Shown piece after piece: positions 743 to 19,090 of a stretch of DNA of 20,722 nucleotides. The stretch is from the NCBI GenBank assembly GCA_027604185.1, contig JADGKB010000177.1, forward strand, positions 1-20,722, in the 5' to 3' direction. Below the pieces are notes generated by a model that worked only from the letters and a program-made list of their open reading frames with translations, was not told the origin of the DNA and did not search any database. The position numbers were made by a program, and so were the translations under genes. The stretch is from Boothiomyces macroporosus (lineage: Eukaryota > Chytridiomycota > Chytridiomycetes > Rhizophydiales > Terramycetaceae). The number at the start of each line of letters is the position of its first letter. Position 1 is the stretch's first letter.

Positions 743-3191
743 ATGTCGTATAGAGACCAGGAAACATTTTCGGCTCACTATGCACTATTCAGAGAATATC
801 TAGAATCCTATTTCAGTCAGGGATATTCAATGGGTCCATCCTCAGCAACGTCCAGAATTAACCGATTACCACCAGAGCAATTTCTGGATGTATCTATGGA
901 TGTGTACGATGAATTGAACAGGAGATTGAATGATTCAAAAGACTGTAATTCAGTTATAACCGCTAGTGCCTTTTTTACCAATTCGCACCGATTTGGCCCC
1001 AAAGAGAAACCAAGCGAGACAAAAGATGGCGACATTGCCAGAAAACAGATTCAAGGAATTGGCAGCTCAATTATATTTTGAAATTGAAAAAAGATTCCCA
1101 AATATCGCTTCAGATTTTAATGCTCGATATGGAGTACTTTTTTGTTTATCTTAGGCTTTGGATGTGGAGCCCCCAAGACCGATTTCTAGTTCACCGTCAC
1201 CAAGAGAAACAGAAAGAGTAATTTCTGGCAGAAGAGATGTAATGTAATTGTAATCCTAGAATACCGAACGGAATAGCAGACCAGACAGGAGTGAACGGCC
1301 ACCAGACAGACCAGTGGAAAGATCTGAACGAACTCGGAACGCGGCAGTTGCTAGTGAACCTGGTGCAAGAAGAAGAAGAGACCCTTCTACCGAAAACAGA
1401 AGAGCGCCTTCACAAAGAGCACGTTCAAGAGATCCAAATACCAGAATTCCATCGTACAGAAGTGACGAAGGCAATAATAATGCACAGAATACTGAAGCGA
1501 TGCGGGAAGAAATGGCAAAGATTCAATCTGATTATGAATTTAAGATTGCAATGTTGGAAAAGAAATTAAAGGAAGCCGAGCTCTCAAGTCAAGATTTACA
1601 AAATCAGATGTCTACCAAGAATAATGATTCTCGCAAATATCAAACTGAAATATCTCAGCTGCAACAGCAAAACGCAGATCTAATTGAAGACTATGAAAAA
1701 CTAAAGTTAGATTATGGGAAAATGCAAAAGGTAATTCAATATTAAGCTCAAGGACTACAAAGCATTAGATTCTACAAATTTAGAGTTGGAACAGCGACTG
1801 GAAAAATTGCAGCGGGATTATGATTTATTGCAAGAGGACTTTGATAGAGAGCAACAGATTACAAAGGATTTGGAACTGCGAGTGAGGCAACAAGACGACA
1901 AGTATTTGAAACTACAAGATGACTACGACGACCAACAACGAGTTTTAGATAATATTCGAAATGACTCTGCTGCTCTGGTAAAAGATGTTCAAGTCTTGAA
2001 TCAACAAATAGAAACTTCAAATTCAGAACTTGATGCATTGAAAGCCAACAAACAGTTGCTCGCAGGTGAATTGTCAAAAGCAGAAAATGAAGTTGCATCG
2101 CTAAAGAAAGAAGTAGAAAGACTGCAGGAAGAACTGAAAAAGAAGGCCCAAGTCAGAACATCTATTAATGCCTATCAATCACCAATAAGGTCAGCCTCCA
2201 ATTCTCCTGCTCCACTGGATAAACCAATGTCCCCAAGAAAGGAACAAATTGTCTCTCCAAAAAGAGAGCAGATTACTTCCCCCACACAGAGCGATAGAAC
2301 AGAAAAGGATGACTTGGCCACCGATTTACTGTCCACTTTCAAAAAGATTTCCAAAGATTTAATTGACTCTACAAAGAACAGCAATCCTGTTTCGGTTCTT
2401 GGGCCAATGAAAAGCCTACTGCTTACTTGTAAACAAATCACCCAAGACTGTGAAGAGAAAGAAGATGATCCTAAAGTTTCAAATGCTGATAAAGACGACT
2501 TGGCAGATTCTAAAGGAAAGCTTTCTGAAAGCTTGACTCATTTGATGGGTATTGCAAAGGAACATGCCTCTGGCAGTGCCAAGTATGATACATCAGCAGA
2601 AATACAGAGTGAAATTGAGTATCTAACCAACTGTGTTGCAGATTTACTTGATTTGCTTAAATTTGTATCAAAAGCACCAGCTCCAAAGCCAACTAATCCC
2701 GTCAGCTCACAGAGAGATACAATGAGACAGTCGGTTGCATATACCAACGAAGAATTACCTCCATTTGAACTCCCAGAGCTAAAAGTATTTGCTTTTTGAT
2801 ATTTAGGATTATTTACAAGAGCAAACAGATATAATTGCGCATAACATTCAAGATTTGCTTGCTGCTATTAAACAAAACTCTCCGACAGACAACGTTACTA
2901 AATTTATTAACAGCATCGCAACTTGCATGGATAATATTATTTATGAAACTCAAGGGACATTGGATATCTCTCCACAGATGAATCAAGATGCAATGGCTGA
3001 CGCCGATGATATTCTAGCTGTTCTTGGAGATATTCGAAATGAGCTATTGGATTTGAATGATATGATAATTAAGACCCCGAACGATCGGGCAATCAAGCAA
3101 AAAGTTGGGACATTGTCTTATGAAGTTGCAAAGGTAATAGTTTGATTAACTTTAGCAAGCCAAGGATCTGTTGGTTGTGTTGGATTATTGA
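743..3191 (+). CDS. SPA2: Spa2-family cell polarity scaffold (two SHD/GIT repeats, coiled coil)
   Basis: Seven exons joined across six introns (945-966, 1134-1154, 1239-1259, 1731-1752, 2785-2806, 3134-3155; 21-22 nt) give 772 residues. Two Spa2-homology (GIT/SHD1) repeats lie at about residues 39-62 (RLPPEQFLDVSMDVYDELNR) and 85-111 (LPENRFKELAAQLYFEIEKR), the second restored only by splicing. An Arg/Ser-rich linker is followed by a heptad-rich coiled coil at about 225-445, a Ser/Pro linker (SPIRSASNSP), and a helical C-terminal domain with the conserved-looking ELPELKDYLQEQTDIIA segment made across intron 5. Spa2 is a polarisome scaffold at growing tips, binding MAPK-module kinases, formin and Rab GAPs. 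I chose ATG 743 because it is the first in-frame ATG and sits 38 residues before repeat 1. The gene converges on Snf1 with 59 bp between stops. Confidence 0.88.
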
Positions 3192-3250
3192 AATTATATA
3201 TAGTAAAGTCTTTATTTGTGGCTATCATTTATTGATCTATTTTGAATACA

Positions 3251-4870
<1,620 letters not shown>

Positions 4871-5154
4871 TTTGGATTGCGGGCGTTTGCAAAAAGTTCT
4901 TTGAGACGGGAGCCCAAAAATAGCATGGAACCCAGGAAAGATTATTTCTCAAGCATACTTGCTACGCACCGGATTGGCGATGCTCGCCTCTTCGCTATCC
5001 CCGCCAAACAGAACTGCTTGTAGATCTACCTGCGATCCGTATCTCAATGAGTAATATAGTTTCATTTATTTTGATGCATTTCTCCATGCAATCTGCTGGG
5101 GCAAGTATTTGTTGGTAAATAAAGGTGCTTTGCGACTGTTTCCTCCCACCATCT

Positions 5155-6288
5155 ATGATTGCGAGCGTACTATTTGCTTCCTTACTAGCTCAGTCTCCCG
5201 ACCCAGCGACATCTCCAGAATACATTGGGAACTGCCTTTCTCAAACTATCGACTTTTCTGACACCTCACGCATTTTTGACATGGGAGGGTTGCCAACATT
5301 GACAGATATCAAAGGGCTTGATGTCTCCAGATATGACATGACTATGGACTACAATTCTCAAAATATAAAAATCATTCCGGGGTCTGGAGTTAGGCTCGAT
5401 CTTACTCCAAATAAAGCTGGTGGGGATCCAGTTGGAACAAGAATGTCTTCAACTAGATTCATGCAATACGGAAAAGTTTCGGCTGTATTGAAAGCACCTG
5501 CAGTCAGTGGAATCGTCATTACGTTTATTTCCATGGGCCCTCAGCTCCCTGACCCTAATGTGGACCTTAGCTATGTTGATCCTTCTGGTGGTGATGAAAT
5601 CGATTGGGAATTATTAGGATCTGATCCCCTTCATGCCGAAAGTAATATATTCTATAGAGGGATCCCAGAATACGGAATAAGGAGCGGGACTCACCCACTC
5701 TCGAATAACATTACTGAATTTCACAAGTACACCATTGATTGGAAACATGATTTGATCAATTTCCTGATCGATGATCAGCTAGTTCGCACTTACTACAAAA
5801 ATAGCACTTTGGCAACCGATTCAAGATCGGCAACAGAGCAATTCTTTCCAAATCGCGCTGGAAAGTTTCAAATTAGTATTTGGAGCCAAGCATGTAAGAA
5901 TGTTTAATGTTAGCAAATACTTGGGCGGGAGGAGCTGCAAAGTTTGCAAATGGAGTTGATTCATACTCTGCTTATTATAAATCGATTGAGGTGGAATGTT
6001 ACGATAGTAACGACACGGTGGTACCAAAATGGCCCAACTCTGCTTCAAACCCAGATAAACTTCCATCAATACCAAATCAGCCAACAGCCGGTATTACTGT
6101 TATTAATTATAGTATTCAATGGAGTAATCCCAAAGACAGCCGCTCCGGGATTTGTCGGGCCTATTACTAGCCAGTATGACGGATATGGGAATTTAATAAC
6201 TATAGCTCAAACTTCGTTCTCCAATGTGAGCTCATATGGAGCCGCATCTTTATTAACCTTTGCGTTGATCCTTCTCTTGTCATTGTGA
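5155..6288 (+). CDS. CRH-type GH16 transglycosylase (chitin-glucan cross-linking), GPI-anchored
   Basis: Three exons (introns 5894-5913 and 6091-6112) give 363 residues. There is a short N-terminal signal peptide (MIASVLFASLLA) and then a GH16 domain. The catalytic signature is DEIDWELLG, with Glu148 as nucleophile, Asp150 and acid/base Glu152 in the E-x-D-x-E order of fungal Crh1/Utr2. YTIDWKHDLINFLIDD and WAGGAAKF are further family landmarks, the latter restored by the first intron. A hydrophobic C-terminus (AASLLTFALILLLSL) after a Ser/Asn stretch fits a GPI signal; only the second intron brings it into frame. The CBM18 chitin-binding module of some Crh proteins is absent. Crh enzymes transfer chitin chains to beta-glucans in the cell wall. 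ATG 5155 is chosen because it directly starts the signal peptide. A 35-bp gap separates it from the next gene, and it is divergent from Snf1. Confidence 0.9.
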
Positions 6289-6323
6289 ATAAATAATAAG
6301 CATCACGTTTTTTAAGCTTTTGA

Positions 6324-7964
6324 ATGACGTTTCGAAATCTTTGGTTGAGTATGATACTAGCTCTTCTAACAAATAGCATTGAAGCAGCCTCATTAGCCGT
6401 CGAATCACAATGGAAAACAGGCGATTGCGTTGGTCCGCCAGACGCAATATACCAATTTCAACTAGTGGACTACAAAGCCAGTTCTCCGAAAATTCACAAC
6501 GAAACCTGGCCGCCATCATTTGCAACTTTTCTCAATACCAACCCGATGTATTCGTGTGGGAGGATGAATAATGAACTGCACCCTTACCAATGCTGCGTGT
6601 CATCTCTCAACTATACTTTGACCAAAATGCAAAGTGTTACGTTCGACTATTTAGATCCACAAGGGATACAAAATAACATCCCAAAAGCAGCAACAGGAAG
6701 CAGTTATTGTTTTATACAAGATGCCGGGAATAATACTTTTGGCTATAAATCACTGCATATCCGCAATAATACTTGCATTGAAAATATGCTATGTACTATG
6801 CCGTCAATACAGTTTTATAATACTAAGGATTGTTCTGGCAATGTTACATTGAATGTGGATGTAACTGTGCCTTCTAGCATTACAACACCGCGAGGACTTG
6901 TAAATATGTCACAGATATTAAATATACAGGGAAACACACAATACTTTCGTTGGATATCCCAAATACCAAAAAGCTTGCTGGTGCCTAATTATTCATACGT
7001 AATTGATGTTGTTAGCATACTCTGTGCGGTTCTGTCAGTTGTATGTTATCTTACCACGATCCCCTATTATGCTTACTTGGTTTACCAAAGGTGGTCGCCC
7101 TTGTATATGCTTGTAACTGTCGAACAATCAATGTGGATGATTTCGAATGCACTATCCGTTTGGAACTCTTATGGGACGTATCCTTCATCGTATGTGGGAA
7201 ACATATCAAAAACTATAAACGCACTCACTCAAAATATAGCTTCAGTCATGGGTGTATGTACGTCTGCTTATTTGGGGCTGAGAATTTATGGTACAAATTG
7301 GAAGTTGGATTGTGCAGTGTATGCATTCATAATAATCAGCAACTTTGCATTTAATGGTACCTCATACTTGTATTATTCTTACGCAACGAATATGTATGGA
7401 TGGGCATATGCGATTTGGCCATATTGGAAGCCTTATTCGGTGTATTGGTACATTCTAATGATGATACTAAACTCGCTACCAATATTAGGGATTATTTATA
7501 CACTGTTGAAATCCAAAACGACGAAAATGTATCCAATGTTTCAAAAATTTGTAAAGGAGCATCCTCGATTCATGATTCTCTACGCATTCTACAACTTTAA
7601 CACTGTTTGCTATATCGGACTGGCATTATTCAGGTCTTATGCAAGAGTTCTTTATGGAATTGATCGAAATGATTATTCAATAGGAAACATTCAAAACTTT
7701 CCAATTGCAGTTCACTCGGTTATTCAAACGTTTTGTCTGCGAGCACTAATGGAAATCTCCAAGCAGAAAACTGGCAAGAGCAGGAAGACAGGGTCTAGCC
7801 GGCCAAAGAAGGAAGATGAAGGGATTAAAAAGAGCTCAAATGCACCTGAAACTTCAAAAGCAGAATCAGGGTACACTTCAGATCATGCCCTTACGCGTAA
7901 ATCGACTCGTAAAGAATTGGTTGCCACTGTTATTCAACCAAAGTTTTCCACAGTAGATGAATAA
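6324..7964 (+). CDS. Seven-transmembrane receptor-like protein with secreted cysteine ectodomain
   Basis: A single 546-residue open frame without introns. It has a signal peptide (residues 1-22) and an ectodomain of about 200 residues with eight cysteines (35, 78, 90, 91, 129, 151, 157, 170) and many N-x-S/T sites. Seven hydrophobic spans follow at about 224-254, 257-280, 298-322, 328-350, 374-396, 416-436 and 461-478. A basic, Ser/Lys-rich cytoplasmic tail (about 480-546) ends the protein. This layout fits a G-protein-coupled-receptor-like surface protein, with the tail in the cytosol. I do not recognise a named family; no DRY or NPxxY motif is evident. An adhesion-like or zoospore chemosensory role is inference only. 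It is the longest uninterrupted frame of the window, unlike its intron-rich neighbours, and its stop is 4 bp from the opposing stop at 7969. Confidence 0.75.
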   Translation: MTFRNLWLSMILALLTNSIEAASLAVESQWKTGDCVGPPDAIYQFQLVDYKASSPKIHNETWPPSFATFLNTNPMYSCGRMNNELHPYQCCVSSLNYTLTKMQSVTFDYLDPQGIQNNIPKAATGSSYCFIQDAGNNTFGYKSLHIRNNTCIENMLCTMPSIQFYNTKDCSGNVTLNVDVTVPSSITTPRGLVNMSQILNIQGNTQYFRWISQIPKSLLVPNYSYVIDVVSILCAVLSVVCYLTTIPYYAYLVYQRWSPLYMLVTVEQSMWMISNALSVWNSYGTYPSSYVGNISKTINALTQNIASVMGVCTSAYLGLRIYGTNWKLDCAVYAFIIISNFAFNGTSYLYYSYATNMYGWAYAIWPYWKPYSVYWYILMMILNSLPILGIIYTLLKSKTTKMYPMFQKFVKEHPRFMILYAFYNFNTVCYIGLALFRSYARVLYGIDRNDYSIGNIQNFPIAVHSVIQTFCLRALMEISKQKTGKSRKTGSSRPKKEDEGIKKSSNAPETSKAESGYTSDHALTRKSTRKELVATVIQPKFSTVDE

Positions 7965-7968
7965 ACCG

Positions 7969-8151
7969 CTAGATTATTGTTGGTAGTTTGGAGATTCTAT
8001 AATAAATTAGAGCGTCATTGATGTAATTGTACCACTTTATTGTGATGTCACGATTCTTTACAGCATAAAATCTTTGAGCTACAGAATCCATTCGCCGTTG
8101 CGTAAATATACTCACGTCCAGAATTATTTCAGGGCCAGTAAGATTTGACAT
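7969..8151 (-). CDS. Small conserved-looking protein of unknown function, 60 aa
   Basis: One exon from ATG 8151 to TAG at 7971-7969. The product is charged and probably helical (QRRMDSVAQRFYAVKNRDIT), with no signal peptide or membrane span. I do not recognise it. Support for it being a real gene is positional: it fills exactly the gap between the 7TM gene (4 bp from its stop) and Ist3 (39 bp between the two start codons), in a window where genes are closely packed. No 19-22 nt intron with a GTA start and a TTAAC-like branch site could be placed inside it. It could instead be the last exon of a gene in another frame, but the ATG lies so close to the Ist3 start that little room is left. Confidence 0.5.
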   Translation of the reverse strand: MSNLTGPEIILDVSIFTQRRMDSVAQRFYAVKNRDITIKWYNYINDALIYYRISKLPTII

Positions 8152-8190
8152 TTTCTTTGCAATTTGTTTTCAAAAAATTCAAGATCAACC
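8152..8190. promoter_or_regulatory. 39-bp divergent promoter between unknown small gene and IST3
   Basis: Only 39 bp separate the two opposing ATG codons. The segment is AT-rich with T and A runs. It must hold at least the leader sequences of both genes, so transcription start sites may lie inside the opposite coding sequence. No clear TATA box is seen. Confidence 0.45.
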
Positions 8191-9053
8191 ATGGCTCACA
8201 ATACCAGAAATATTCAGCGGCTCAATCAGATAGAACTGGAGAAGGGCTTGATAGGAAAAGCCAGTTGGCATGACCAATTTAAAGTAATACAGATTAACCG
8301 TAGGATTCAGCCTACATCTATGTCGGCAGTTTACCGTTTGAGCTGACAGAAGGAGATTTGATTGCAATATTTTCACAGTATGGAGAAGTTATAGACTTGG
8401 ATTTAATCAGGGATATAGAGACTGGGAAATCAAAAGGATTCTGTTTTATTGGATATGAAAATCAGAAAAGCACTGTCCTGGCTGTTGATAATTTGAATGG
8501 AATAAAGATTCTAGATCGCACTATTAGAGTAGATCATACAGAGAAGTATGTGAAGCGACCAATGAAAGGAGAAAGCGAACAAGAGTTTCAAGAACGAGAA
8601 CAAAGAAGACGAGATTTAGTTTTGCCGCCCCACTTGAAACCGGGATATGTTCCTGAATCAGATGATGAGGAAGAGGGAGGGGCTGCTAAACTAAACGAAG
8701 ATCCAATGAGTTCATATTTCAGCGAGAAGAAAATGAAAAAAGAAAAGAAAGAAAAGAAGGAAAAGAAAGGGAGAAAGCGACAACGAGAATCAAGTGCGGA
8801 GCGCAATCATCCAAGAGATGATTCACAATCATCAAGGAAAGATCATCTCAGCCATCATAGAGAAAAGTACAGACGTGACGATTCCAGGGATAGGATATAT
8901 GACAAATATGATAGAAGCGACTCCCGAGAAAGGTCAGGGCGCAGATATGAAAGTAACTACTCCAGGGACAGGACAGAGAGAAGCTATGATACAAGAGACA
9001 GATCCAGGGAAAGACACAAAAGCAGTAAATACCCAGATAGCTATAAAGAATGA
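8191..9053 (+). CDS. IST3: Ist3/Snu17/RBMX2 RRM protein of the RES complex and U2 snRNP
   Basis: Two exons (intron 8284-8303, 20 nt) give 280 residues. The N-terminus NIQRLNQIELEKGL...SWHDQFKDSAYIYVG is the distinctive start of Ist3/RBMX2, and the intron falls exactly between WHDQFK and DSAYIYVG. The single RRM has RNP2 at 34-39 and RNP1 (KSKGFCFI) at 73-80, followed by DNLNGIKILDRTIRVDH, then KRP and a PPHLKPGY-like segment. The last 130 residues are Lys/Glu and Arg/Ser/Asp-rich (RDRSRERHK), as in animal RBMX2 rather than short yeast Ist3. The protein joins Bud13 and Pml1 in the RES complex, which stabilises the activated spliceosome and helps splicing of weak introns. Its own transcript needs splicing of a 20-nt intron. 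ATG 8191 fits the family N-terminus. Confidence 0.93.
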
Positions 9054-9115
9054 AAAAATAAACTGAATTATAAACAATTACATTAAAATTTAGTGAAATA
9101 GAATTTATAAAGAGC

Positions 9116-9640
9116 TTATTCTTCGTCTTCTTCTTCTTCTTCATCTCCGGCAATGTTGAAGTATCTCAATTCATAAGCAGATTTGGAGGATGCAACAACA
9201 CGGATCCAGTCACGGAGAGAGTGCTTCTTCAAGAACTTCTTTGCAAGGTACTTGATGTAACGCTTAGCAAATGGAGTGGTGGCAGAAGCGGTAACGGTAA
9301 TGATGGAACCAGAACGAGCAATGGTAACGGCATCAGTCAAGTTTCCAGTGCGACCTTCAACCTTGATTCTGTCTTGCAAGAATTTTTCGAATTGAGCAAT
9401 GTCGAAAACACCATCAGCAGCTGGCTTGGTAGCATCGATAGTGAACTTGGAAGCAGTCTTCTTTTGAACTTGTTTCTATTGGTTAATCTGTTCAAAGCCC
9501 TACTCTTGACATAAACATTTGAGCAAACAATAAAAGCTACTCGTCGTTTAAATGCCGAATTCAAATTGAATTTGAGCAAAGGTAAATGTTATTGTTCTTG
9601 TTTAATGTCGGTAGAGGGTTGCTATACATACTTGAGCCAT
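9116..9640 (-). CDS. RPL22: 60S ribosomal protein eL22
   Basis: Two exons: ATG GCT CAA (MAQ) at 9640-9632, then a 156-nt intron (9631-9476), then 9475-9116. The 122-residue product reads [22 protein letters not shown], then [15 protein letters not shown], then [21 protein letters not shown], then [20 protein letters not shown] and an acidic EEEEEDEE tail. This matches eukaryotic eL22 in every block and in length. eL22 sits on the large subunit near the exit tunnel. A first exon of only a few codons followed by a comparatively long intron is typical of fungal ribosomal protein genes. Codon use is more biased (GCC, AAG, TTC, ACC) than in neighbours, as expected for high expression. It converges with IST3, 62 bp apart. 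Confidence 0.96.
9476..9631 (-). other. Long intron of RPL22 (156 nt)
   Basis: Begins GTATGT, the strong fungal 5' splice site, and ends GATTAACCAATAG, with a TTAAC branch-like site about 6 nt before the AG. It is roughly seven times longer than the other introns here. It carries an 11-bp direct repeat (ATTTGAGCAAA on the + strand at 9517-9527 and 9570-9580) and a short palindrome around CAAATTCAATTTG. No convincing C/D or H/ACA snoRNA boxes were found. Confidence 0.85.
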
Positions 9641-10211
9641 TTGAAAAGTAAGAAATTTTTTTGTTGGATTGGATTTTAACTTTTTTTTTATTGGATCTCA
9701 GCCAATGAAATTCTCCGAAGTCACATGATTTAGTTGAACATAAACTGGGAAGCTATTAATAGTGTCAACCACTTCTCGAGCGACTGACTTGGGTTTTGAC
9801 GTTCCAATATTTCCATCCCGCTCATATTTAAAATTATATTCCCGCGAATATCGTAAAATCAAAAGCTAAATTGGTAGCTCTAGATGATCTACAGACATTC
9901 ATGGAATGTTAGATCTACCTTGAACATCTTTACCAAACAGGGAAAATTGAGATATTAAATTTCAAAGGGCCCGTTCTATACCTATTAAAGTCTGTCCTTT
10001 TGATTGTGGATCCCAGACATAAATGTCTTTTGCTAATCTATCCAACTGGTATAGACTAAAACAACTTACTGTGATAGCTAAACAGTGTATAAAATTGAAA
10101 TTCCATCACTTGTATTAACATACTGCAATTGTAAATTTACGGCATAAATGTTCATATTAGTATTTAGAATCATAAAATATAAATATATTATTTACAAAAT
10201 GGAAGAGTTGC
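9641..10211. other. 571-bp stretch without a supported gene
   Basis: It should contain the RPL22 promoter near 9641-9750 (T-rich tracts, CCAAT-like GCCAATGAA at about 9700) and the 3' flank of the lysine-rich gene. Two short frames look mildly coding: a + strand 31-residue frame at 10023-10118, and a minus-strand stretch open from 10105 to 9962 without an ATG (it reads KDIYVWDPQSKGQTLIGIER). They overlap each other and neither can be confirmed. Palindromes occur at 9886-9915 and at about 10016 (AGACATAAATGTCT). No tRNA boxes were seen. Confidence 0.5.
9886..9915. repeat. Imperfect inverted repeat (hairpin) in intergenic DNA
   Basis: GATCTA (9886-9891), CAG bulge, ACATTC (9895-9900), ATG loop, GAATGT (9904-9909), TAGATC (9910-9915). 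The two perfect 6-bp arms are interrupted by one 3-nt bulge. It could be part of a structured RNA, a protein-binding palindrome, or chance in AT-rich DNA. Confidence 0.5.
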
Positions 10212-10715
10212 TTAAAGCGCGTTCTTTGCGGTGTTTGGGTCAAGCTCAATGTCTTGGAGCACAGCTGGTTCAGCGGCGGCGGCAGCAGCAGGAGGAGCAG
10301 CAGCTTGACCAGCATTTGCATTTGCATTAGCATTTTGGGCAGCAGCTTTGTTTGCGTTTTTCTTTCCGCCCTTCTTTCCACCTTTTTTACCCTTCTTTCC
10401 TCCCTTCTTTGCCTTCTTTGCTTTCTTGCCTCCTTTCTTGGTCTTTTTGGCTTTCTTGCCTCCTTTCTTTGCCTTTTTGGCTTTCTTGCCTCCCTTCTTT
10501 GCCTTTTTGGCTTTCTTTGCTTTCCCACCTTTCTTTGCCTTCTTTCCGCCCTTCTTTGCTACAGCTTTCTTTGCACCTCGAGGAAGAGCTTCTGGAACCG
10601 GATTAGCTTCGCGCTTATCCAACGCATTTGAGCCAGCAAGTGAAGATTCAAAATCAGCTGGAGTAGCACCAACAACCGCGAGAATTGCAAACAGATGAAT
10701 GATAAATTTGAACAT
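10212..10715 (-). CDS. Secreted lysine/glycine repeat protein with Kex2-like processing site
   Basis: A single exon encoding 167 residues. A signal peptide (MFKFIIHLFAILAVVGA) is followed by a short acidic pro-region and the sequence LDKREANP. The dibasic KR at 34-35 followed by EA is the arrangement cut by Kex2 and then trimmed by Ste13 in yeast alpha-factor precursor. From residue 48 to 119 the protein is almost only Lys, Gly and Ala, built from 10-residue units KKAKKAKKGG (about four copies) grading into KKGKKGGKKGG. The tail is Ala/Asn-rich (NANANANAGQAAA) and then acidic. No GPI signal is evident. A secreted polycation could bind acidic wall polymers, DNA or membranes, or act as an adhesive; this is inference. 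The start is fixed by the signal peptide and a TATA box 26 bp upstream. Confidence 0.75.
   Translation of the reverse strand: MFKFIIHLFAILAVVGATPADFESSLAGSNALDKREANPVPEALPRGAKKAVAKKGGKKAKKGGKAKKAKKAKKGGKKAKKAKKGGKKAKKTKKGGKKAKKAKKGGKKGKKGGKKGGKKNANKAAAQNANANANAGQAAAPPAAAAAAEPAVLQDIELDPNTAKNAL
10359..10574 (-). repeat. Lysine-glycine coding repeats (30-bp units)
   Basis: Tandem units of 30 bp encode KKAKKAKKGG; the best-kept copies lie at about 10390-10530. The + strand is a long C/T-rich tract of CTTCTTTGCC-like words, so the overlapping + strand frames rich in Phe, Leu and Ser are by-products. Such tracts are prone to copy-number change. Confidence 0.8.
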
Positions 10716-10740
10716 TTTGGATGTTGCAGATTTGGTTTTC

Positions 10741-10749
10741 CTTTTTATA
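10741..10749 (-). promoter_or_regulatory. TATA box of the lysine-rich protein gene
   Basis: TATAAAAAG on the minus strand, ending 26 bp before the ATG at 10715. It implies a very short 5' leader. Confidence 0.55.
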
Positions 10750-10826
10750 ACAGTTTTGTGGCATTGGCTTTACTGAAACTTTTCCCAAAGGGGTAGATAT
10801 TTTTTGGAAGCCCCTACAAGCCCAAC

Positions 10827-11107
10827 ATGAAGTGCATGGAGCCATTCACAAAACTAACTAAATCAACCAACAAAAAGTTTATTATATTAATATGAATAAT
10901 CTTGATAGACTGGGTCAATATTGTAGATTGTTGTTTGATGGATGTTCCTCTTTGACATTTTCCAAGGTTCCAGCATGGGCTTGTCAAATTGCAATGATGA
11001 AATGGCAGGCTGTCAAGGTCGGGACTTGCACACATGGTCCGCTAATTGAGTTTGTATTCGATTTCAATAGAAAACCACTAATCAACAAGCTGATTGGTGT
11101 AGTCTAA
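10827..11107 (+). CDS. Doubtful small gene, product unknown
   Basis: A frame at 10892-11107 encodes 71 residues (for example FSKVPAWACQIAMMKWQAVK and GPLIEFVFDFNRKPLINKL). An upstream ATG at 10827 gives KCMEPFTKLTKSTNKK and can be joined by removing about 32 nt (10876-10907, GTTTAT...GATAG), making about 82 residues that start vaguely like the N-terminus of a PEX11 protein. That intron would be longer than the 19-22 nt norm and starts GTTT. The opposite strand also has an open frame (10814-11035) that looks less protein-like. I do not recognise the product. It may be a real small gene, a decayed gene fragment, or chance. Confidence 0.25.
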
Positions 11108-11196
11108 TTACTAAACTGATTCAACACCCTCTGAATGTCCAAGATGTTCTTTAGATAGGAAATAGATCAAAATTAAAGTCCACCCGATCTATTCTG

Positions 11197-11602
11197 TCAT
11201 GCTGTTTGAGAAAATGGAGTAATGAGATTGGGGTCTGGCAGAACATTAGGTCTTTTGCGCAAATATTCACAGGGTCCTGGCTGCCATTGATTTCTACACA
11301 CACCTAACTTGATACTGTTTTCCTCTAGGGCCAATTCATTTATTTCTGCGATCGTTTGTGTTCCAATCCAAATACGCTTGCGGAATATTGTTATTTTAAT
11401 TATAGTGGAGTTTCTCAGCTCGATAATTCTAGTGACACCATACCCTGGATTTAATCCAGTTTTGTTGCTCCGCTAGTTATCTAAAGAGATTGAATTCCAG
11501 TTATACGGTCTGTATTCGTTTATTCACGTATGAGATAGATATAACGCGGAAAACAATTTGACAGTGCTTCATGTTAATATTCCTCCTTATTAGTAATTTC
11601 AT
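11197..11602 (-). CDS. Unrecognised two-exon gene, about 123 aa
   Basis: The second exon (11472-11197) is open for 91 codons and reads like a real protein: NPGYGVTRIIELRNSTIIKI, RKRIWIGTQTIAEINELALE, GVCRNQWQPGPCEYLRKRP. It is preceded by ATAACTAG, which matches the branch-plus-acceptor pattern of the other introns, and it has a TAG in frame just upstream, so a first exon is required. The best donor is GTATAACT at 11506, giving a 34-nt intron (11506-11473) and a first exon from ATG 11602 (MKLLIRRNINMKHCQ). That N-terminus is basic and hydrophobic, which could be a mitochondrial presequence. No domain is recognised. The intron is longer than the usual 19-22 nt, so the first exon is the weaker part. 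Confidence 0.45.
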
Positions 11603-11628
11603 GAAGAAATATTAATCTGTAGGGGTTT

Positions 11629-11662
11629 CCGACGAATTTAATTCAGAATTATTAATCGTCGG
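11629..11662. repeat. 34-bp near-palindrome between divergent genes
   Basis: CCGACGA (11629-11635) and TCGTCGG (11656-11662) are exact inverse complements, and the centre AATTCAGAATT is also symmetrical; one internal asymmetry lies between. It sits 27 bp upstream of the minus-strand gene start at 11602 and 78 bp upstream of the + strand ATG at 11740. A regulator binding site serving both genes, or a hairpin in a leader, is plausible. Confidence 0.6.
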
Positions 11663-11697
11663 AGGTGCACGGTTACATTTTAATATATGTGAAAAAG

Positions 11698-11704
11698 TAT
11701 AAAG
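11698..11704 (+). promoter_or_regulatory. TATA box of the GPI mini-protein gene
   Basis: TATAAAG begins 42 bp before ATG 11740, a position comparable with the TATA box of the lysine-rich gene. Confidence 0.5.
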
Positions 11705-11739
11705 CCAACGGCAAGTTTCCATGAATCATTATTAAAATA

Positions 11740-11931
11740 ATGAAATCCTTCCTAGTAGCTCTCCTTTCTGTCTTTGTCATTGCCGCCCCAGCTGCTGATC
11801 CACAGTTGCAAGAGAATTGCGATGGCCCAATGACCACCACTGTTACTCCAACTAAAGCCCCTAGTGCCGCACTTTCAAACACTGTCATGCCTGCTTTGGC
11901 CGTCGCTGCTTTCGCCGTTGCATACCTTTAA
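11740..11931 (+). CDS. Very small GPI-anchored surface protein, 63 aa
   Basis: A single exon with a textbook signal peptide (MKSFLVALLSVFVIAAPAA), a short Thr/Pro-rich middle (ENCDGPMTTTVTPTKAPSAA) and a hydrophobic C-terminus (VMPALAVAAFAVAYL) directly before the stop. This is the layout of a GPI-anchored protein reduced to about 20-25 mature residues with one cysteine. Codon choice (GCC, GCT, CCA, ACC) is biased, and a TATA box lies close upstream, both hinting at strong expression. An AATAAA-like signal (TTAATAAAAG) follows about 30 bp after the stop. It could coat the cell surface; no family is recognised. Position and orientation differ from both neighbours, so it is probably a single transcription unit. 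Confidence 0.65.
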   Translation: MKSFLVALLSVFVIAAPAADPQLQENCDGPMTTTVTPTKAPSAALSNTVMPALAVAAFAVAYL

Positions 11932-12031
11932 ACATTGTACCTGAATTTGCTCTTTTTATTTCGTTAATAAAAGTCTGTTTAAAAAACAAGCCTTTTGATC
12001 TATTTAGACTCTGTCAATCTTTCGCGTTTAC

Positions 12032-14430
12032 ATGGAACGGCGGACAAGTTTTGCCACGTACTATGGAAATACATTTGCGGATGGACAAAGGATGGAAAAA
12101 AACAGTAGTAGGATCGGAGGGTTAGCGTCTGCACCGATTAGCACTGCGGCATGGGATCACGAAGATAATAAACCAAGGGTTGCCAACTCTGAACCACAGT
12201 TTATCTCCAAATACAAAACCGGAGTAGCTTCAACGCAACAAAGAGGCGCAAATAAAATAGTGATTCCAGGCGACATTTCAAAACCAACGTTTCTTCGTAA
12301 AGCACAAGCATTTTTAAATCATGAACTGCACGTTATTGGCGCGACACAGTACATGGAGTTAATTTTAGTGAGGCACCAGGAACCCTTCGAAGGCTACAAG
12401 TATATACCCAAGTATTTGGTTTAATCCGACTAATTCAGACTTGTTTATTCAAAATTTTAAAACTTATGAACCAATATTATCAGATATAAAGCGAGAATAC
12501 GACTTGGTTATAGAAGCTCAACGGAATGATTTATCGCAATTTGAAATCGTAAAGTCAAAGTTATCAATCATGGAGTTTAAGATGCAAAAGGAAATTGAAA
12601 AAGTAATGCATGATGCAAATATAATGATCCAAGATTTGGTTAGAGATAACGAGTCTGTTCAAGAAAAACTACAGGCAAAAACTCAAGAACTAATGCTGAT
12701 GACGAAAAAGAATGAATCGCTCATGCAAGAGCAAAAACGCAAAGCAGAATTGAAGCCTGCAGAAGTATTTTCTATTAACACAGTCTCCTGAAATGATTGA
12801 GCTCAGAAATCTTGCCCAAGAATACGCAAACTACGAGCGAAGGACAAGAGATTTATTGGATGCCAAGAGCGACCAAGTAGTAGAACTCATTGCAGCCAAA
12901 CAAAAAGGTACTTTGCATTTGATCCAGCCGTGCAAGAAAATGCGGATTTGCAGCTTACAATTTCCAATATGAGCAAGACGCTTGACGAGTACAAATCAAG
13001 AAATATCAACGGGATGATTAGAGAGCTTGGAGAATTAAAAGGAAAATTAAGTGCCATGAGCGAAGAGAAAAGAATGATGGTACATAATTGTTAAATAATG
13101 AACTTGAAGTATGAGGAATTGGAAAGGAGTTACAAGAATTCAAAGCAAAGTGCTTTAAAATCATTGAGTTCTCAATTGCCAAATTGGGAGTATATTCAGA
13201 GCCAATTTTCTTCAAACATTAAAGAGTACTGGACTCTTGCTAGGGATATGGACTCGAATGATGCGATTATCAAGCTCATTAGAGAATTGCAAAAGGTAAT
13301 AATTAGATTTATAAGGCTAAATCTACTATCAAGACAGATATTCGTCAACCAGGATCTGAACAGTATAAAAGTACTAAAAATAGCGTTTCGGCTGAAAATA
13401 ACGTGGTACAGATACATGACCAATACTTTCCACCCAAAGGTACTGATACTTCTATACCAAAATACCTCCGTTCAAAGACCAAAGTGTTGAACAGACACTT
13501 GACAAAAGAGAACTGCCTTCTCTTGATCAAAGATATTTGGGAAGCCAAAACCATACATGATTCTACTATTAAACAGACAACAGTAATTGCATTTAACATA
13601 GCTGGACGAATTCTTGTACTTGTACTTGAAAAAACGCTTTGGGAATCAGGATATTATATGCGAATGGGGCTACAACCTGACCGAAGCATGTCAAAAATTC
13701 AAAGATACAAGTGCCGACTGCCAGATATTTACAAGCATCTTGAATGGAGAGATATTAGAGTCATCGTACTATATTCTTCATTCAACGATTGAGAAATTAA
13801 AGAATTTGTTTTATCAGAATGATATGGATACCAACCATAATAGCGCAAAAGGATTCTTGGATAGGGCTATAATAATGAGGATTCTAAATCAGTTCTGGCC
13901 ATACAAATCAAAGCAGCAGCTTTACACACTGGAAACAGTATAGATATATTAACAAGGCATTAATTAATGATCAGCCGGGTACAAACGTAATCTATAGATT
14001 CTTGTTTGAATCAGAATCAGAATCCGCTTTTACTGAAACTCTAAAAACACAACACTTGCAAAGTCGATCAGATTATTTACAAGAATTAGAGAATATATTG
14101 AAGCGAATATCTAGAGATGAAAACCTTTCTGTGTTTGAAGCTACTAAAGCATTCAATGAAATTGATAGCTCAAAGAGACCTGAAGACGTTGATAAACTAG
14201 TCGCACTTGGCTTTGGAATCAAAACTATTGACTTGAAGCCAAGATTAATGATTCCTAAAAAGAAATTTATACAAGTATCCGCAACTAACATAGAATATAA
14301 AGCATCTTCCATTAATAAAAGGAAATGGAATGGACCAGCTGCTAATAAAACTAAAGTAATTAAAATTGCAAAAATTCATTGGTATTACTCGTTGTTCTTT
14401 GTATCGTCTCTTCAACAGTCCATCCTTTAG
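12032..14430 (+). CDS. TSNAXIP1-like coiled-coil protein (cilium/flagellum-associated family)
   Basis: Nine exons (introns 12349-12368, 12419-12438, 12765-12783, 12908-12927, 13080-13109, 13296-13315, 13583-13601, 13938-13956) give 743 residues. The N-terminal domain at about 80-145 reads KPTFLRKAQAFLNHELH, TLRRLQVYTQVFDLFIQNFK and TYEPILSDIKREYD. This fits the TSNAXIP1 N-terminal domain; the middle part appears only after two 20-nt introns are removed. Coiled coil follows, then IPKYLRSKTKVLNRHLTKEN, KDIWEAK and LYLKKRFGNQDIICEWGYNL, which also fit the animal protein. TSNAXIP1 binds translin-associated factor X and is expressed in ciliated and sperm cells; a flagellar role here is inference. 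Seven introns are 19-20 nt. The fifth is about 30 nt and less certain. The last 71 nt overlap the opposing TatD coding sequence. Confidence 0.8.
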
Positions 14431-15139
14431 CTTCACTAACCAGCCCAACAATTTTTTTCATTGCATCGTCCACCATCACGGTATCATGAATATCGCTTTC
14501 AATCAGGATCCTATTATCAGGTATTCCTTTGATTTTATCTATAGTTTTTGGCGATCTGGCATTTACAAAATGAGAAAAGGAAAAATAGAAGCGTTTGCCT
14601 ATTCGTGGAAGTTTGATTAGCTGTTTAGCAATCTCTAGCGATGCGGTAAACGAATGCATCATGATGGAAGGTGGGCAGGGAAGCGCGAGGTTTGATTTTT
14701 TAGGTTTTGCACAAGTCTTGTCCAACAGTGTAAAATAATTCAACATTTCGGACGGTGTATGAACGCAGTGCACTGATACAGGCCTGTTATATTTCACTGC
14801 TATATCTATTTGTTTTTGAAATGTTTCGAGTTGCTTGTCAAAGTCATACACATTCCCTTCTGTGTCTGTAGCAATCTTATCCAATCCAATTTCTCCGACA
14901 AGTGCTTTCGGATTCCTTGAAACATATTCTTCCAGTTCATTCAAATTTGACTCCAAATTAGTAAACCAGGGATGAATCCCAAACGAAGGAATAATTTTGT
15001 TGTACTTGGCAGCGAGCGATTCTACCAGTGAAAAATCTGAATTCCTAGTCGACATTACAAACAACTTTTTTGTTTCCAGTTCATTGATTCCGATCAGAGT
15101 GTTTGGGGTGTCGATAATGTGAGAATGGACATCGATCAT
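14360..15139 (-). CDS. TatD-family metal-dependent hydrolase (Scn1-like)
   Basis: A single exon of 259 residues from ATG 15139. The start is fixed by MIDVHSHIID, where the HxH metal motif lies at residues 5-7 as in TatD proteins; the longer upstream frame would run into the divergent gene. Other landmarks are IIPSFGIHPWF, ALVGEIGLDKI (metal-bridging Glu), PVSVHCVHTPSE, IMMHSFTAS and RILIESDIHD. The C-terminal GWTVEETIQRTTSNTNEF corresponds to the usual last helices. The family contains 3'-5' DNases and, in fission yeast, the Cut9-interacting protein Scn1. The region KPKKSNLALPCPPSIMM is a small insertion before the fourth metal ligand. No introns. Its start lies 31 bp from the start of the next + strand gene, and its end overlaps the TSNAXIP1-like coding end. 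Confidence 0.88.
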   Translation of the reverse strand: MIDVHSHIIDTPNTLIGINELETKKLFVMSTRNSDFSLVESLAAKYNKIIPSFGIHPWFTNLESNLNELEEYVSRNPKALVGEIGLDKIATDTEGNVYDFDKQLETFQKQIDIAVKYNRPVSVHCVHTPSEMLNYFTLLDKTCAKPKKSNLALPCPPSIMMHSFTASLEIAKQLIKLPRIGKRFYFSFSHFVNARSPKTIDKIKGIPDNRILIESDIHDTVMVDDAMKKIVGLVSEAKGWTVEETIQRTTSNTNEFLQF

Positions 15140-15170
15140 GAGACAAAGGCTTTGAAAAAAGATTCCAAAA
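15140..15170. promoter_or_regulatory. 31-bp divergent promoter between TatD and membrane protein genes
   Basis: Only 31 bp lie between the opposing ATG codons at 15139 and 15171, too little for two independent core promoters. Shared control, or promoter elements inside the neighbouring coding sequence, is likely. Confidence 0.4.
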
Positions 15171-16558
15171 ATGCCAGATATTGATATTCTAGGTGGATTA
15201 GCGCTGCCCAATTGCCCATATCCCAGCTCTACACTCCCGCCCTACAACACCAGCGCTTCCTTTCGACTCCAGTACCCTACAATTTCAACCACATACATCA
15301 TCCTGGGAGTTACATTCACATCACTCTGCATTTTAAGCTTTATTAAATACAACAATGTCAAGATATTTAATAGAAAAATAACCCATCCTTCAATTACTAA
15401 TTACGAGTATTGTTTCATGTACTTGTTTCTTGCACTTGGGTTTGTTATTGATGCAATCAGGTACAGCTTGGGATTAGCACACTCGGAAAAAACCCAGAAA
15501 CTAACAGAGCAAACTTGGATTGTAGGGCCATATGTGATGGATACCTGGTTACTTATTGCTTCGTATATTGGCAGATCGACAGCGTTATTCTTTGCATCGT
15601 TAGCAATTAATCAGCAAAGGATATACAGATCGACTGGTAATTATTATTTACATAAGCTGCTGCTAATCCTTCTGATCGTAATCAACTGGAAAGTAATAGT
15701 GAAACTACACCGCTGCTACATTCCCCAATAAGAAGACCTATGTCACAATCGTATCCTGGAGCAAACCCAACCAGTTTAATATTCCAACAGCAGGAGGAAG
15801 AAATAGAACAAGAAGAAATCGAGCAAGAGGTTCCATTTCCAACCAGTAAAACAAACGAATTAATTTCAAAAATTACCAAAGTAATATCCAAACTAGTATT
15901 CAATTGGAAGAATGTTTTTCTATCTGTGTGGATGCTCCGCATTGGGACTCTGTTTCTTACAATGTAATTAAAAGAGTAATTTAGGGATTCTCAGAGATTA
16001 TCGGATCCAATACAATCTTTTACTTTGGATCAGCCATGGAAGACAGGAATCTTGATTACAACAGGAGTTCAAATACTATTCTTTATGCATATGGTCTCAA
16101 CAGTAATAATGACAAAATCATTACCTCTTCCAAACGCAACACTAAGACCAAATAGGAATCGCATATATGGGCCTTCACAGTACTCCAAGGCAATACTATT
16201 CATATCATCAATATGTTCTCTAGTTTACTTTATAGAACCAAGTGTTATATACCGTATTATCATTACATTTTACGAGAATCAAACGTTAGAATCGCTGTGT
16301 ATTGTTCCACCATGGTAAACACTATTGATGTAGGTGGTGGATGGAAAGAAGCGAATATCTGTATAGTATTAGTGCTCATGGATGGGCTAGTTGGATGGAC
16401 TTTTGTCAGTGGATAGGTGGGTTAGGGCTATTTGGGTTTTTTATGTTTATGAAACACGAGTATACTAGAAATATGGAGGTACTATTTCTTAATTGTAGGA
16501 TTGGATATGGGTTACTGTCAATCAAGTTCAGAATACTTTTGATTTTAGGAGATATTAA
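15171..16558 (+). CDS. Multi-span (probably seven-helix) membrane protein, unknown family
   Basis: Five exons (introns 15637-15656, 15964-15984, 16315-16333, 16479-16498; 19-21 nt) give 435 residues. Hydrophobic spans are YIILGVTFTSLCILSFI, CFMYLFLALGFVIDAI, WLLIASYIGRSTALFFASL, VFLSVWMLRIGTLFLT, GILITTGVQILFFMHMV, AILFISSICSLVYFI and WIGGLGLFGFFMFM. The N-terminus is short and has N-x-S sites, with no cleavable signal peptide. The third loop carries a long insertion with NPSDRNQLESNSETTPLLHS and a Glu/Gln-rich stretch; ETTPLL resembles an acidic dileucine sorting signal for endosomes or vacuole. The protein ends DWIWVTVNQVQNTFDFRRY. A 7TM receptor-like or vacuolar membrane protein is plausible; I do not recognise the family. 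After the second intron another frame is also open for a while, but it lacks the membrane spans. Confidence 0.72.
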
Positions 16559-16623
16559 TAATAGTATCTTTCCTTTTATCGAGTATCATTTGTATCTCTT
16601 TATCTCTAATTATCTTTCGAATT

Positions 16624-16677
16624 ATCTCTATTGATTATTAACTTTCTAATATCTCTATTGATTATTCTCTTTCTAAA
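16624..16677. repeat. 27-bp tandem duplication upstream of the RRM gene
   Basis: Two copies of ATCTCTATTGATTATT followed by about 11 less similar bases ending TTTCTAA (16624-16650 and 16651-16677). Weaker TATCTCT words extend upstream to about 16590. It lies 48 bp before ATG 16726 and may be promoter sequence. Confidence 0.6.
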
Positions 16678-16725
16678 CATCAAAGAATGACTCAAAAAAA
16701 AAAGTTTTCAAAAAAAAATAAAAAA

Positions 16726-17037
16726 ATGTTCTTTAAAAGAGCTTTCCACTCCTTCCCTAAACAATTACAGAAATTGTACGTCGGCAATATTGCATGGACA
16801 TCCACCGAAGACCAGCTCCGCCAACCATTCTCCAAATTCGGCTCAATCCTCGATGTTTTCATTGTCCGTGACCGTTTAACTGGTCGATCAAGAGGATTCG
16901 CTTTTGTAGAATTTGCTAATAAGCAAGACGCAGAAAAAGCCAAGCAAGAATTGGACGGAACTACTTTAAACGGCCGTGTGTTAAAAGTAAACTTGGCTGT
17001 TGATCGTGAAAGAAAGACTTTTAATAATGAATTTTAA
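16726..17037 (+). CDS. Single-RRM RNA-binding protein, probably mitochondrial
   Basis: A one-exon gene of 103 residues. The RRM fills almost the whole protein, with RNP2 LYVGNI at 17-22 and RNP1 RSRGFAFV at 54-61, plus VRDRLTGRSRGFAFVEF and LDGTTLNGRVLKVN, as in plant and fungal glycine-rich RNA-binding proteins but without the glycine-rich tail. I prefer ATG 16726 over the in-frame ATG at 16687. It gives MFFKRAFHSFPKQLQ, a good amphipathic basic mitochondrial presequence, while the upstream codons lie in an A-rich leader coding KKKFSKKNKK. A role in mitochondrial RNA binding is inference; a cytosolic RNA chaperone is the alternative. Codon use is biased (TTC, GCT, CGT, AAG), consistent with good expression. 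AATAAA follows the stop within a few bases. Confidence 0.82.
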   Translation: MFFKRAFHSFPKQLQKLYVGNIAWTSTEDQLRQPFSKFGSILDVFIVRDRLTGRSRGFAFVEFANKQDAEKAKQELDGTTLNGRVLKVNLAVDRERKTFNNEF

Positions 17038-17132
17038 TATTTGTAATAAAGCGTTTTTTCAATAGTAATTAAAGCAATTGATTTTAGAGCATTTAAACAG
17101 TCTAATAGAATCAAAATCGGTATTCTTTTTTC

Positions 17133-17884
17133 ATGTCATCTCAAAATATACTTTCGCTCGTTTGGCATTCAGTAGAAAACAAGGACACTTCGTTGATTTC
17201 ACAGTTGGAGATACCAGAGATTGAACTGCTGCTGAGTCAGCTACATTCGCAAATCAAACGAGAGAAATCAGAGATACAACTGGCTCTACTGTTGAATTTC
17301 AAGAAACTAGTCCTGGATGTAGTCACTAGCAATTACCCTCTTTCTAAACTGTCGTCGATAGTAGATTACTTGCATCCAATGGAATGTGTCTGTACTCTTA
17401 CCTAACATAGACATGATTTTAAACTCTTTAATGAGTGAGGATTTACAAGAATTCCTGGTTCATAAACAGCAAATATACACTATTTTTGGATATATCTGTA
17501 GATGGAAACAGTACAAGATAACAGACGAAGGCGACGAGCTTTATTATGAAACGTTTTTCAATGATTACTCGAGACAAGAACGTAAAAATGTAATGGATAA
17601 AGTTGGTAAATACAAATAATGTAGGAATGGATTTGTTGAAACTGGAGCCTCTAGATCAAACAGTCACAATCAATCTGCAAGAAATTGTTCCGTATTTGGA
17701 CTATGACCAACTAGAACTATTCTACAATATCACTAAAAAGGATTTCTGGCCCTTTTTATCCAAACAAAATATTGAGCTGCTTTTAAAAGATGATTCAGAT
17801 CTGAGTAAAAGATTTTATGAGTATTTGAAAACAGATTCAAGTTTTTTGGGTGAATATCAGAGTTTATATGAATCAAAGAAATAA
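17133..17884 (+). CDS. Unknown helical protein, 237 aa
   Basis: Three exons with two 19-nt introns (17392-17410, GTACTCTTACCTAACATAG, and 17606-17624, GTAAATACAAATAATGTAG). Joined, they read continuously through YLHPMECVYMILNSLMSEDL and RKNVMDKVGMDLLKLEPLDQ. The product is leucine-rich and predicted mostly helical (IELLLSQLHSQIKREKSEIQ), without signal peptide, membrane span or recognised motif. The end contains repeated aromatic/acidic helices (VPYLDYDQLELFYNITKKDF). The splice sites match the window's strict intron pattern, which is good evidence that this is an expressed gene. It stops 2 bp from the opposing stop at 17887, and the AATAAA that overlaps its stop codon lies partly in the gap. 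Confidence 0.7.
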
Positions 17885-17886
17885 AG

Positions 17887-19090
17887 CTATTGTTGGTTAC
17901 ACTCTTGTGGGGTTTGTCGATCGATTTTCAATCTTTTTCTTTCTGGTTTATCAATTGGTTTGGTTTCTAGATTTTCTTTTTCTTTATGGATCTGTTTAAC
18001 CAAATCATTGATTAATTCTTGTTTGTTTTCTTTTTTATCATCTTGATCTTTCATTTGTTGATCTTTTACTTTAATAACAAGACTTTTCTGTTCAATTGAC
18101 ACCTTGCGTTCAACCAATCCCTCCTGTCCAACCAATCCTTCACGTTCAACCAACTCTTCCTGTCCAACCAATCCTTCCTGTCCAATCAACTCTTCCTGTT
18201 CTTTTTCCTTTTTCAATTCATTAATCTCATCTATATTAACCAATTTTACCAGTTAGCATCTTAATCTGCTTCAACAATTCAATATTCCTATTGTTTTCTT
18301 CTATTTTACACATTCTCAAGTACTTTATTTCATCCTCATTATTGTTTGCTAATCCATAACTGTTCATTTTCTCTAATACTTCGATTTTTTGATTTAATTC
18401 TTGTATTTCTGATTTTAATTGAGATACTAGGTCCAAGTCTAGTTTTAATTGAACTGGTCTTCGTTCTTTTTTTACTTGTAGTTGAGAGAATAATGATTGT
18501 TGGGGTAAATTTGATGTAATTAGTCTTTGCTCTTCTATTGGCTGGTTTTGAATTGCTTCTTCATATAATGACTTGTACTCTTCAATAGTTTCTAATAAGG
18601 CATTGATCTCTTCTCTGTTATCCACGTGCTTGATTATCTCTACTGTTTCTACTTTGATTTGTTCTCTAGTTTTTACTTGCTTTTGTTTTTCGATTTCAAT
18701 TTCCAACATCTTCTTTTCATTGAGAATTTCTTTATATTTCAACTCTAAATCTAGCAATTCTTGTTTGATTTCTTTAGTTTTGTCTTCTGATTCGGTCAAC
18801 TTGTTTGTAAATTCCTTGTTTTCTATTTCCATTTGGATTAGTAAATCCTGATTCTTGTCTATGATTGCTTTCTGTTTTTTTGTTTGTTCTCTCAACAAGT
18901 TTAGCTCTTGCTTTGCTTGATTCAACTCAGATTCCATCTTTATATACTCCTGTTCAATCACCAGTTGGTTGCTCTTTTCTTTTTCTAGTTGGGTTTGCAA
19001 TTCTTGGTTTTGCTGAGTGAGGTATAGTCCTAGTTCGCAAGCTGTTTTTAAATCTGCTTCTTTTTGGAGGAGCTGTTCTTCTAGATTCAT
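17887..19090 (-). CDS. Coiled-coil protein with dynein-adaptor CC1-box-like motif
   Basis: Two exons (19-nt intron 18249-18231, GTAAAATTGGTTAATATAG) give 394 residues. Residues 10-36 read KEADLKTACELGLYLTQQNQ and ELQTQLE. This resembles the CC1 box (A-A-x-x-G followed by LLxxNxEL) with which BICD, BICDR, HAP1 and Spindly contact dynein light intermediate chain; here the second Ala is Cys. Almost all the rest is heptad coiled coil up to about residue 285. The second exon encodes a hexapeptide repeat (consensus GLVGQE/ELVERE, five copies) and then a Lys/Glu-rich end. A role linking cargo to dynein is inference from the motif alone; a generic coiled-coil scaffold is the alternative. Its stop lies 2 bp from the neighbour's stop. 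Confidence 0.7.
18107..18196 (-). repeat. 18-bp tandem repeat in coding sequence (five copies)
   Basis: On the + strand, five 18-bp units alternate between CGTTCAACCAATCCCTCC-like and TGTCCAACCAATCCTTCC-like forms. They encode a six-residue repeat of the GLVGQE type, so the reading frame is kept whatever the copy number. Confidence 0.8.

Follow-up and report, generated by a model that had tools for sequence, protein, structure and literature searches.

The window analyzed here is the whole of contig C177 (20,722 bases), one of 216 contigs in a genome of 15,203,306 bases, and eight of its protein-coding genes are interrupted by very short introns. Our rebuilt gene models contain 30 such introns between positions 945 and 18249, of 19 nucleotides (nt; nine introns), 20 nt (11), 21 nt (four), and 22 nt (six), reproducing exactly the counts given in a preliminary description of this DNA. 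Once the introns are removed, all eight genes read in frame from ATG to stop with no internal stop codon. All 30 introns begin with GT and end with AG. The preliminary description had them all starting with GTA, which holds for 29; the remaining one, at 12419 to 12438, starts with GTT.

Protein alignments with homologues support 21 of the 30 joins. The Spa2 (polarisome) gene (743 to 3191, plus strand, seven exons) has introns at 945 to 966 (22 nt), 1134 to 1154 (21 nt), 1239 to 1259 (21 nt), 1731 to 1752 (22 nt), 2785 to 2806 (22 nt), and 3134 to 3155 (22 nt), and all six joins are backed by homology, although for joins 2 and 3 this comes only from a close relative, Boothiomyces sp. JEL0866. 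In the gene for Snf1, the AMP-activated kinase (3251 to 4870, minus strand, eight exons), the introns lie, in order of transcription, at 4775 to 4794 (20 nt), 4522 to 4541 (20 nt), 4308 to 4328 (21 nt), 4158 to 4179 (22 nt), 3887 to 3905 (19 nt), 3675 to 3694 (20 nt), and 3467 to 3485 (19 nt); homology backs every join except the sixth, which falls in a nonconserved linker and comes from the gene model. The Ist3/RBMX2 gene, which itself encodes a splicing factor (8191 to 9053, plus strand, two exons), has a single 20-nt intron at 8284 to 8303, and its joined product aligns without gaps to human RBMX2 and yeast Ist3. A gene for a CRH-like GH16 glycosidase (5155 to 6288, plus strand, three exons) has introns at 5894 to 5913 (20 nt) and 6091 to 6112 (22 nt); the first join is backed weakly, with a seven-residue gap beside it, and the second comes from the gene model only. 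Homology backs all seven tiny-intron joins of the TSNAXIP1-like gene (12032 to 14430, plus strand, nine exons, 3' end uncertain), at 12349 to 12368 (20 nt; join 1), 12419 to 12438 (20 nt, the GTT intron; join 2), 12765 to 12783 (19 nt), 12908 to 12927 (20 nt), 13296 to 13315 (20 nt), 13583 to 13601 (19 nt), and 13938 to 13956 (19 nt).

The introns of the three other genes are placed by the gene models only, and a Pfam search found no match for any of their products. They are the second membrane protein gene (15171 to 16558, plus strand, five exons), with introns at 15637 to 15656 (20 nt), 15964 to 15984 (21 nt), 16315 to 16333 (19 nt), and 16479 to 16498 (20 nt); the gene beginning at 17133 (17133 to 17884, plus strand, three exons), with 19-nt introns at 17392 to 17410 and 17606 to 17624; and a coiled-coil (CC1-box) gene (17887 to 19090, minus strand, two exons), with a 19-nt intron at 18231 to 18249. 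Exon 2 of the coiled-coil gene also holds an 18/36-nt tandem repeat (18107 to 18199).

The narrow length range extends beyond the window. Long open frames in 220.7 kb, comprising positions 1 to 100000 of contigs C1 and C2 and the window, served to train an ab initio finder, which was then applied to this DNA. A flat-prior scan, covering introns of 10 to 150 nt with no length preference, returned 122 introns with GT-AG, and 68 of these were 19 to 22 nt long. Nineteen decoy dinucleotide pairs put through the same scan gave 2 to 13 introns each in this range; among the 20 site pairs, the peak appeared with GT-AG alone. When lengths of 18 to 23 nt were given a discount, the catalogue grew to 257 introns of 19 to 22 nt, and the lower edge was sharp: at this discount, 18 nt is represented by two introns and 19 nt by 60. 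Most introns that could be detected in the sampled genome belong to the tiny class. We make no claim of selection against 21-nt introns that lack a stop, as the finder is nearly blind to them (all 46 of the 21-nt introns found carry an in-frame stop).

GT-AG is built into the finder, and independent support comes from a frame-jump test that is blind to splice sites. Here, matches to families were sought one exon at a time across the whole genome, and the leftover DNA between neighboring matches was computed. Of 67 neighboring pairs, 17 in which over 10 profile positions were doubtful were left out; two of those 17 also gave 19 and 20 nt. The reading frame shifts in 46 of the 50 pairs kept and is maintained in four. 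Forty-one of the 46 frame jumps imply a length of 19 (14 pairs), 20 (18 pairs), or 22 nt (nine pairs), while the other five imply 11, 13, 32, 41, and 41 nt; without four apparent duplicate rows, the count at 19, 20, or 22 nt is 38 of 42. Introns of 21 nt keep the frame and are invisible to this test. The sharp peak at 19 to 22 nt that the preliminary description had named as support for its claim is thus present in both the flat scan and the frame jumps.

The tiny introns share a common plan, with a GTAAT-like start, a YTAAY branch site whose A mostly lies at nt 14 or 15, and 5 or 6 nt from there to a terminal TAG or CAG. The branch-site, spacing, and position +5 statistics given here are drawn from the 257-intron catalogue, which is a mixed one, and the branch site was not used by the finder. 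YTAAY with its A 3 to 9 nt from the intron end occurs in 147 of the 257 introns, compared with a mean of 28 and a maximum of 47 in 500 shuffles; as background, 218 of all 1,532 GTA..AG segments of 19 to 22 nt in the same DNA have YTAAY so placed. An expectation-maximization search with no position preference recovered the same motif, starting mostly at nt 11 or 12. With looser motifs, a branch A can be assigned in 233 introns. It lies at nt 14 in 42 of 54 introns of 19 nt, at nt 14 (41 introns) or nt 15 (60 introns) in the 105 of 20 nt, at nt 15 in 32 of 43 of 21 nt, and at nt 16 (14 introns) or nt 15 (nine introns) in the 31 of 22 nt. At least 14 nt reach up to and include the branch A in 227 of the 233, and at least 5 nt follow it in 220; the practical minimum intron is 14 plus 5 nt. 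A G at position +5 is present in 37 of the 257 tiny introns versus all three of the long introns of ribosomal protein genes described below, two of which are themselves inferred.

These longer introns coexist with the tiny class. The RPL22 gene (ribosomal protein L22e; 9116 to 9640, minus strand, two exons) has, in the gene model, a 156-nt intron after codon 3 (9476 to 9631; GTATGT...GATTAACCAATAG). Elsewhere in the genome, consensus and frame point to an apparent 241-nt intron directly after the ATG of the L7A gene and an apparent 92-nt intron splitting the start codon of the S12 gene. All three are located at or near the start codon and begin with GTATGT or GTAAGT, unlike the tiny class, and have 6 or 7 nt after the apparent branch A; RPL22 as rebuilt shares the 3' module of the tiny introns, and L7A and S12 apparently do as well. 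The TSNAXIP1-like gene contains, in addition, a 30-nt intron at 13080 to 13109 that was not part of the set described earlier and whose join matches the protein of Boothiomyces sp. JEL0838. Its first 21 nt resemble a usual 21-nt intron but end with TG, not AG, and the JEL0866 protein keeps three residues (NLK) that correspond to the last 9 nt, as it would with a 21-nt intron. It looks as if the 3' site had shifted 9 nt downstream in the source fungus. The earlier wording that intron lengths are "fixed" at 19 to 22 nt slightly overstates the case, given these 30- and 156-nt introns of the window and the apparent 241- and 92-nt introns outside it.

We searched the genome for the spliceosome components U1, U2, U6, Slu7, Prp18, Isy1, Cwc25, and U2AF65. 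U6, two U2 genes, and one U1 gene were found, and their recognition stretches are ordinary: U1 begins with ATACTTACCTG, U2 has GTAGTA, and U6 has ACAGAGA. Slu7 and Prp18 are encoded, with matches above the cut-off, as is Isy1, and a Cwc25-like protein carries a glycine plug at its MGGG start, MGGGDLNLKKSWHP. The gene model for Isy1 begins with MAPKTLAQKQED, the usual start of this protein being MARN-like; its start is uncertain, with ambiguous first exons. At the beginning of this gene (contig C39, L029, approximately positions 1259 to 1300), the sequence reads either as a single 49-nt intron or as a 1-nt exon flanked by two 20-nt introns. The 5' site and the branch site of the tiny introns match the U1 and U2 RNAs encoded in this genome, and both appear to be spliceosomal. 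The tiny introns have what is expected of the U2 type, namely, GT-AG ends, a branch site complementary to GUAGUA of U2, and spliceosomal RNAs and proteins encoded in the same genome. The length peak and the fit to U1 and U2 thereby uphold the proposal that these are spliceosomal introns, uniformly small, in a fungal nuclear genome that is normal in other respects.

Possible traces of tiny introns were seen in relatives, which we compared through their annotated proteins. At matching sites, the Snf1 protein of JEL0866 has an insert of seven residues (join 3), the TSNAXIP1-like protein of Terramyces has one of seven (join 2), and the Snf1 protein of Globomyces pollinis-pini has one of 10 (join 5). 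Back-translation of all three can give GT...AG introns, of 21, 21, and 30 nt, respectively. Every GT...AG back-translation places a YTNAY branch A at nt 15 for JEL0866 Snf1 and at nt 16 for Globomyces Snf1, and 192 of 768 do so at nt 16 for the Terramyces insert. Because a random insert would fit GT..AG by chance in only about 5% (21 nt) or about 1% (30 nt) of cases, the three inserts taken together are suggestive of retained tiny introns. More broadly, Boothiomyces and Terramyces proteins, as annotated, are truncated, change frame, or contain inserts at the sites of tiny introns; the Terramyces Snf1 model is cut short, for instance, and the JEL0866 Snf1 insert fits a retained 21-nt intron. 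On the practical side, gene annotation in these relatives appears to mishandle tiny introns, and many of them would pass for deletions in read aligners whose minimum intron is close to 20 nt.

The joined Snf1 protein is 97% identical to that of Terramyces sp. JEL0728 across 65% of its length and 88% identical to that of JEL0866 across 100%, followed by Batrachochytrium at 56 to 57% (the query, which had no exon 1, started at an internal Met). The TSNAXIP1-like protein shows 93% identity to its JEL0838 counterpart, and the joined Spa2 protein shows 93% identity to the JEL0866 orthologue, both being 772 amino acids long. Because the best matches of all three proteins lie there, the source is, on protein similarity, a chytrid of the order Rhizophydiales close to Boothiomyces and Terramyces; none of the matched records is identical to the source proteins. 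Family-match pairs with identical scores at two places were noticed on contigs C36, C42 and C190, C10, C65, C49 and C100, and C20, which suggests that the assembly contains stretches that are duplicated or are haplotypes left uncollapsed. Elsewhere in the window, positions 10215 to 10715 (minus strand) encode a small protein that may start with a signal sequence and has repeats, rich in Lys and Gly, built on a 30-nt unit; a Pfam search gave no match for it, and tRNA and Rfam scans of the window found nothing.

Taken together, these data make us confident that the tiny introns are U2-type spliceosomal introns that have been worn to about the shortest length that the spliceosome of this chytrid can cut. 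Several points weigh against this reading. Nine of the 30 joins (Snf1 join 6, CRH join 2, the four of the second membrane protein gene, the two of the gene at 17133, and the one of the coiled-coil gene) rest on frame restoration and the intron consensus. At TSNAXIP1 join 1, the annotated proteins of JEL0838 and JEL0866 diverge from the join, and at join 2, those of JEL0838, JEL0866, and Terramyces do so; since the joins are followed by Globomyces and by proteins from farther away, we take these divergences to be errors of annotation. The U1 match, at 68.8 bits, is below the Rfam cut-off of 69.5, and the U2AF65-like protein, scored exon by exon, reaches 230.7 versus a model cut-off of 310.3. 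Under the 18- to 23-nt discount, nine decoy pairs gave 34 to 93 introns versus 267 for GT-AG, and when the discount for GT-AG was shifted to six other ranges of length, 55 to 79 introns were called in those; a considerable minority of the 257 catalogued introns may be false. Lastly, the case is built on DNA sequence: the positions, ends, and motifs are read directly from it, whereas splicing, lariat formation, and the reason for the shrinkage are what we infer.

Short introns might be mimicked by decayed genes or by errors of sequencing or assembly, and it is true that the contig is short (20.7 kb) and that several others look duplicated. Such errors, however, would not share a length of 19 to 22 nt, GTA...AG ends, and a positioned YTAAY, and they would account neither for the conserved sequence regained at 21 of the 30 joins nor for that at frame jumps on many contigs; we regard this explanation as highly improbable. 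It is also conceivable, although in our view unlikely, that the introns are spliceosomal but depend on changes in the spliceosome itself that let it accept them, a proposal made for the ciliate Stentor. The scarcity of G at +5 in the tiny introns compared with the long ones would fit this idea, as would an Isy1 model starting with MAPKTLAQKQED and not in a MARN-like manner. The Isy1 N terminus of Stentor is described as nonconserved (PMC9505925). The ambiguity of the first Isy1 exons counts against giving this weight, and, among the components searched, the step-2 machinery differs: Slu7 and Prp18 are listed as N/A for Stentor and its Cwc25 plug as missing (PMC9505925), whereas all three are present here, with none of that reduction.

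If the introns are indeed spliced by an ordinary U2-type spliceosome, the entire intron would be recognized as a single unit, with U6 pairing with the 5' end and U2 pairing with the branch site and only a few nucleotides between them. Branching would then produce a lariat loop of about 14 nt, and the AG lying 5 or 6 nt beyond the branch A would be docked directly for exon ligation. On this model, two minimum spacings, 14 nt up to the branch A and 5 nt after it, would add up to the lower length bound of 19 nt, and the upper bound might be held near that floor by deletion bias or by selection for compactness. Opposition between deletion bias and a functional threshold has been proposed to produce narrow intron classes (PMC10245619), and the class described here fits that proposal. 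Longer introns persist, including the 5' introns of ribosomal protein genes, and therefore the machine would not be limited to tiny substrates. Slu7 of yeast favors the ligation of exons where a long distance separates the branch A from the 3' site (PMC8022279), and the retention of Slu7 here fits the presence of longer introns.

The closest parallel is Stentor coeruleus, with introns of 15 or 16 nt in which the branch A is at nt 10 or 11 and is followed by 5 nt (PMC9505925). The two systems have in common one narrow length class, a GUA start, a fixed place for the branch A, and 5 nt from there to the end, but the first spacing differs by about 4 nt (branch A at nt 10 or 11 versus 14 or 15), and Stentor is described as having no strong branch consensus (PMC9505925), in contrast to the clear YTAAY found here. 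As a tentative suggestion from the comparison of these two species, spliceosome geometry might set two separate length floors, which minimal introns would reveal: about 5 nt after the branch A in both, and a branching floor that is about 14 nt in this fungus but 10 nt in Stentor, with the 4-nt gap due to the N-terminal plug of Cwc25 (and perhaps to Isy1), which is kept here and missing there.

Mikrocytids likewise have a very uniform tiny class, of 16 or 17 nt, in a nuclear genome, but they are obligate parasites with a strongly reduced spliceosome (17 to 19 proteins) and 224 annotated introns (PMC10245619), compared with 257 candidates in 220.7 kb alone here. Chlorarachniophyte nucleomorphs have introns of nearly the same range, 18 to 21 nt, and many per genome (PMC10245619, PMC5014332), although a nucleomorph is the relic nucleus of an endosymbiont, whereas the present genome is a fungal nuclear one of 15.2 Mb. 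The introns of Paramecium also form a narrow, short class in nuclear genes but are longer (25 to 45 bp) and belong to a ciliate (PMC5014332). As in Stentor, mikrocytids, and nucleomorphs, a narrow class of no more than about 22 nt accounts for most of the introns detected here, and these lengths are not far above the shortest known from any nucleus. Chytrids have been reported to be intron rich, and in the same work, which included two Chytridiomycota, Cryptococcus introns with a mean of 63 bp were called relatively short (PMC8476143); those described here are about one-third of that mean. Among the openly licensed PMC papers listed in our searches, we recognized none on 19- to 22-nt introns in a fungus. 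There are known parallels in other lineages, and the fungal case is probably new.

To our knowledge, the tiny-intron cases known so far come from ciliates, mikrocytids, and nucleomorphs. These lineages are far from yeast and human, whose spliceosome structures are best known. As a chytrid is a fungus, its introns are directly comparable with those of yeast. If the two-floor suggestion is true, this fungus would show the real minimum intron for a spliceosome with standard branching factors. With the 14-plus-5 spacing as a starting rule, the shortest intron that a standard spliceosome can use, and the part of the machine that limits it, would become testable.

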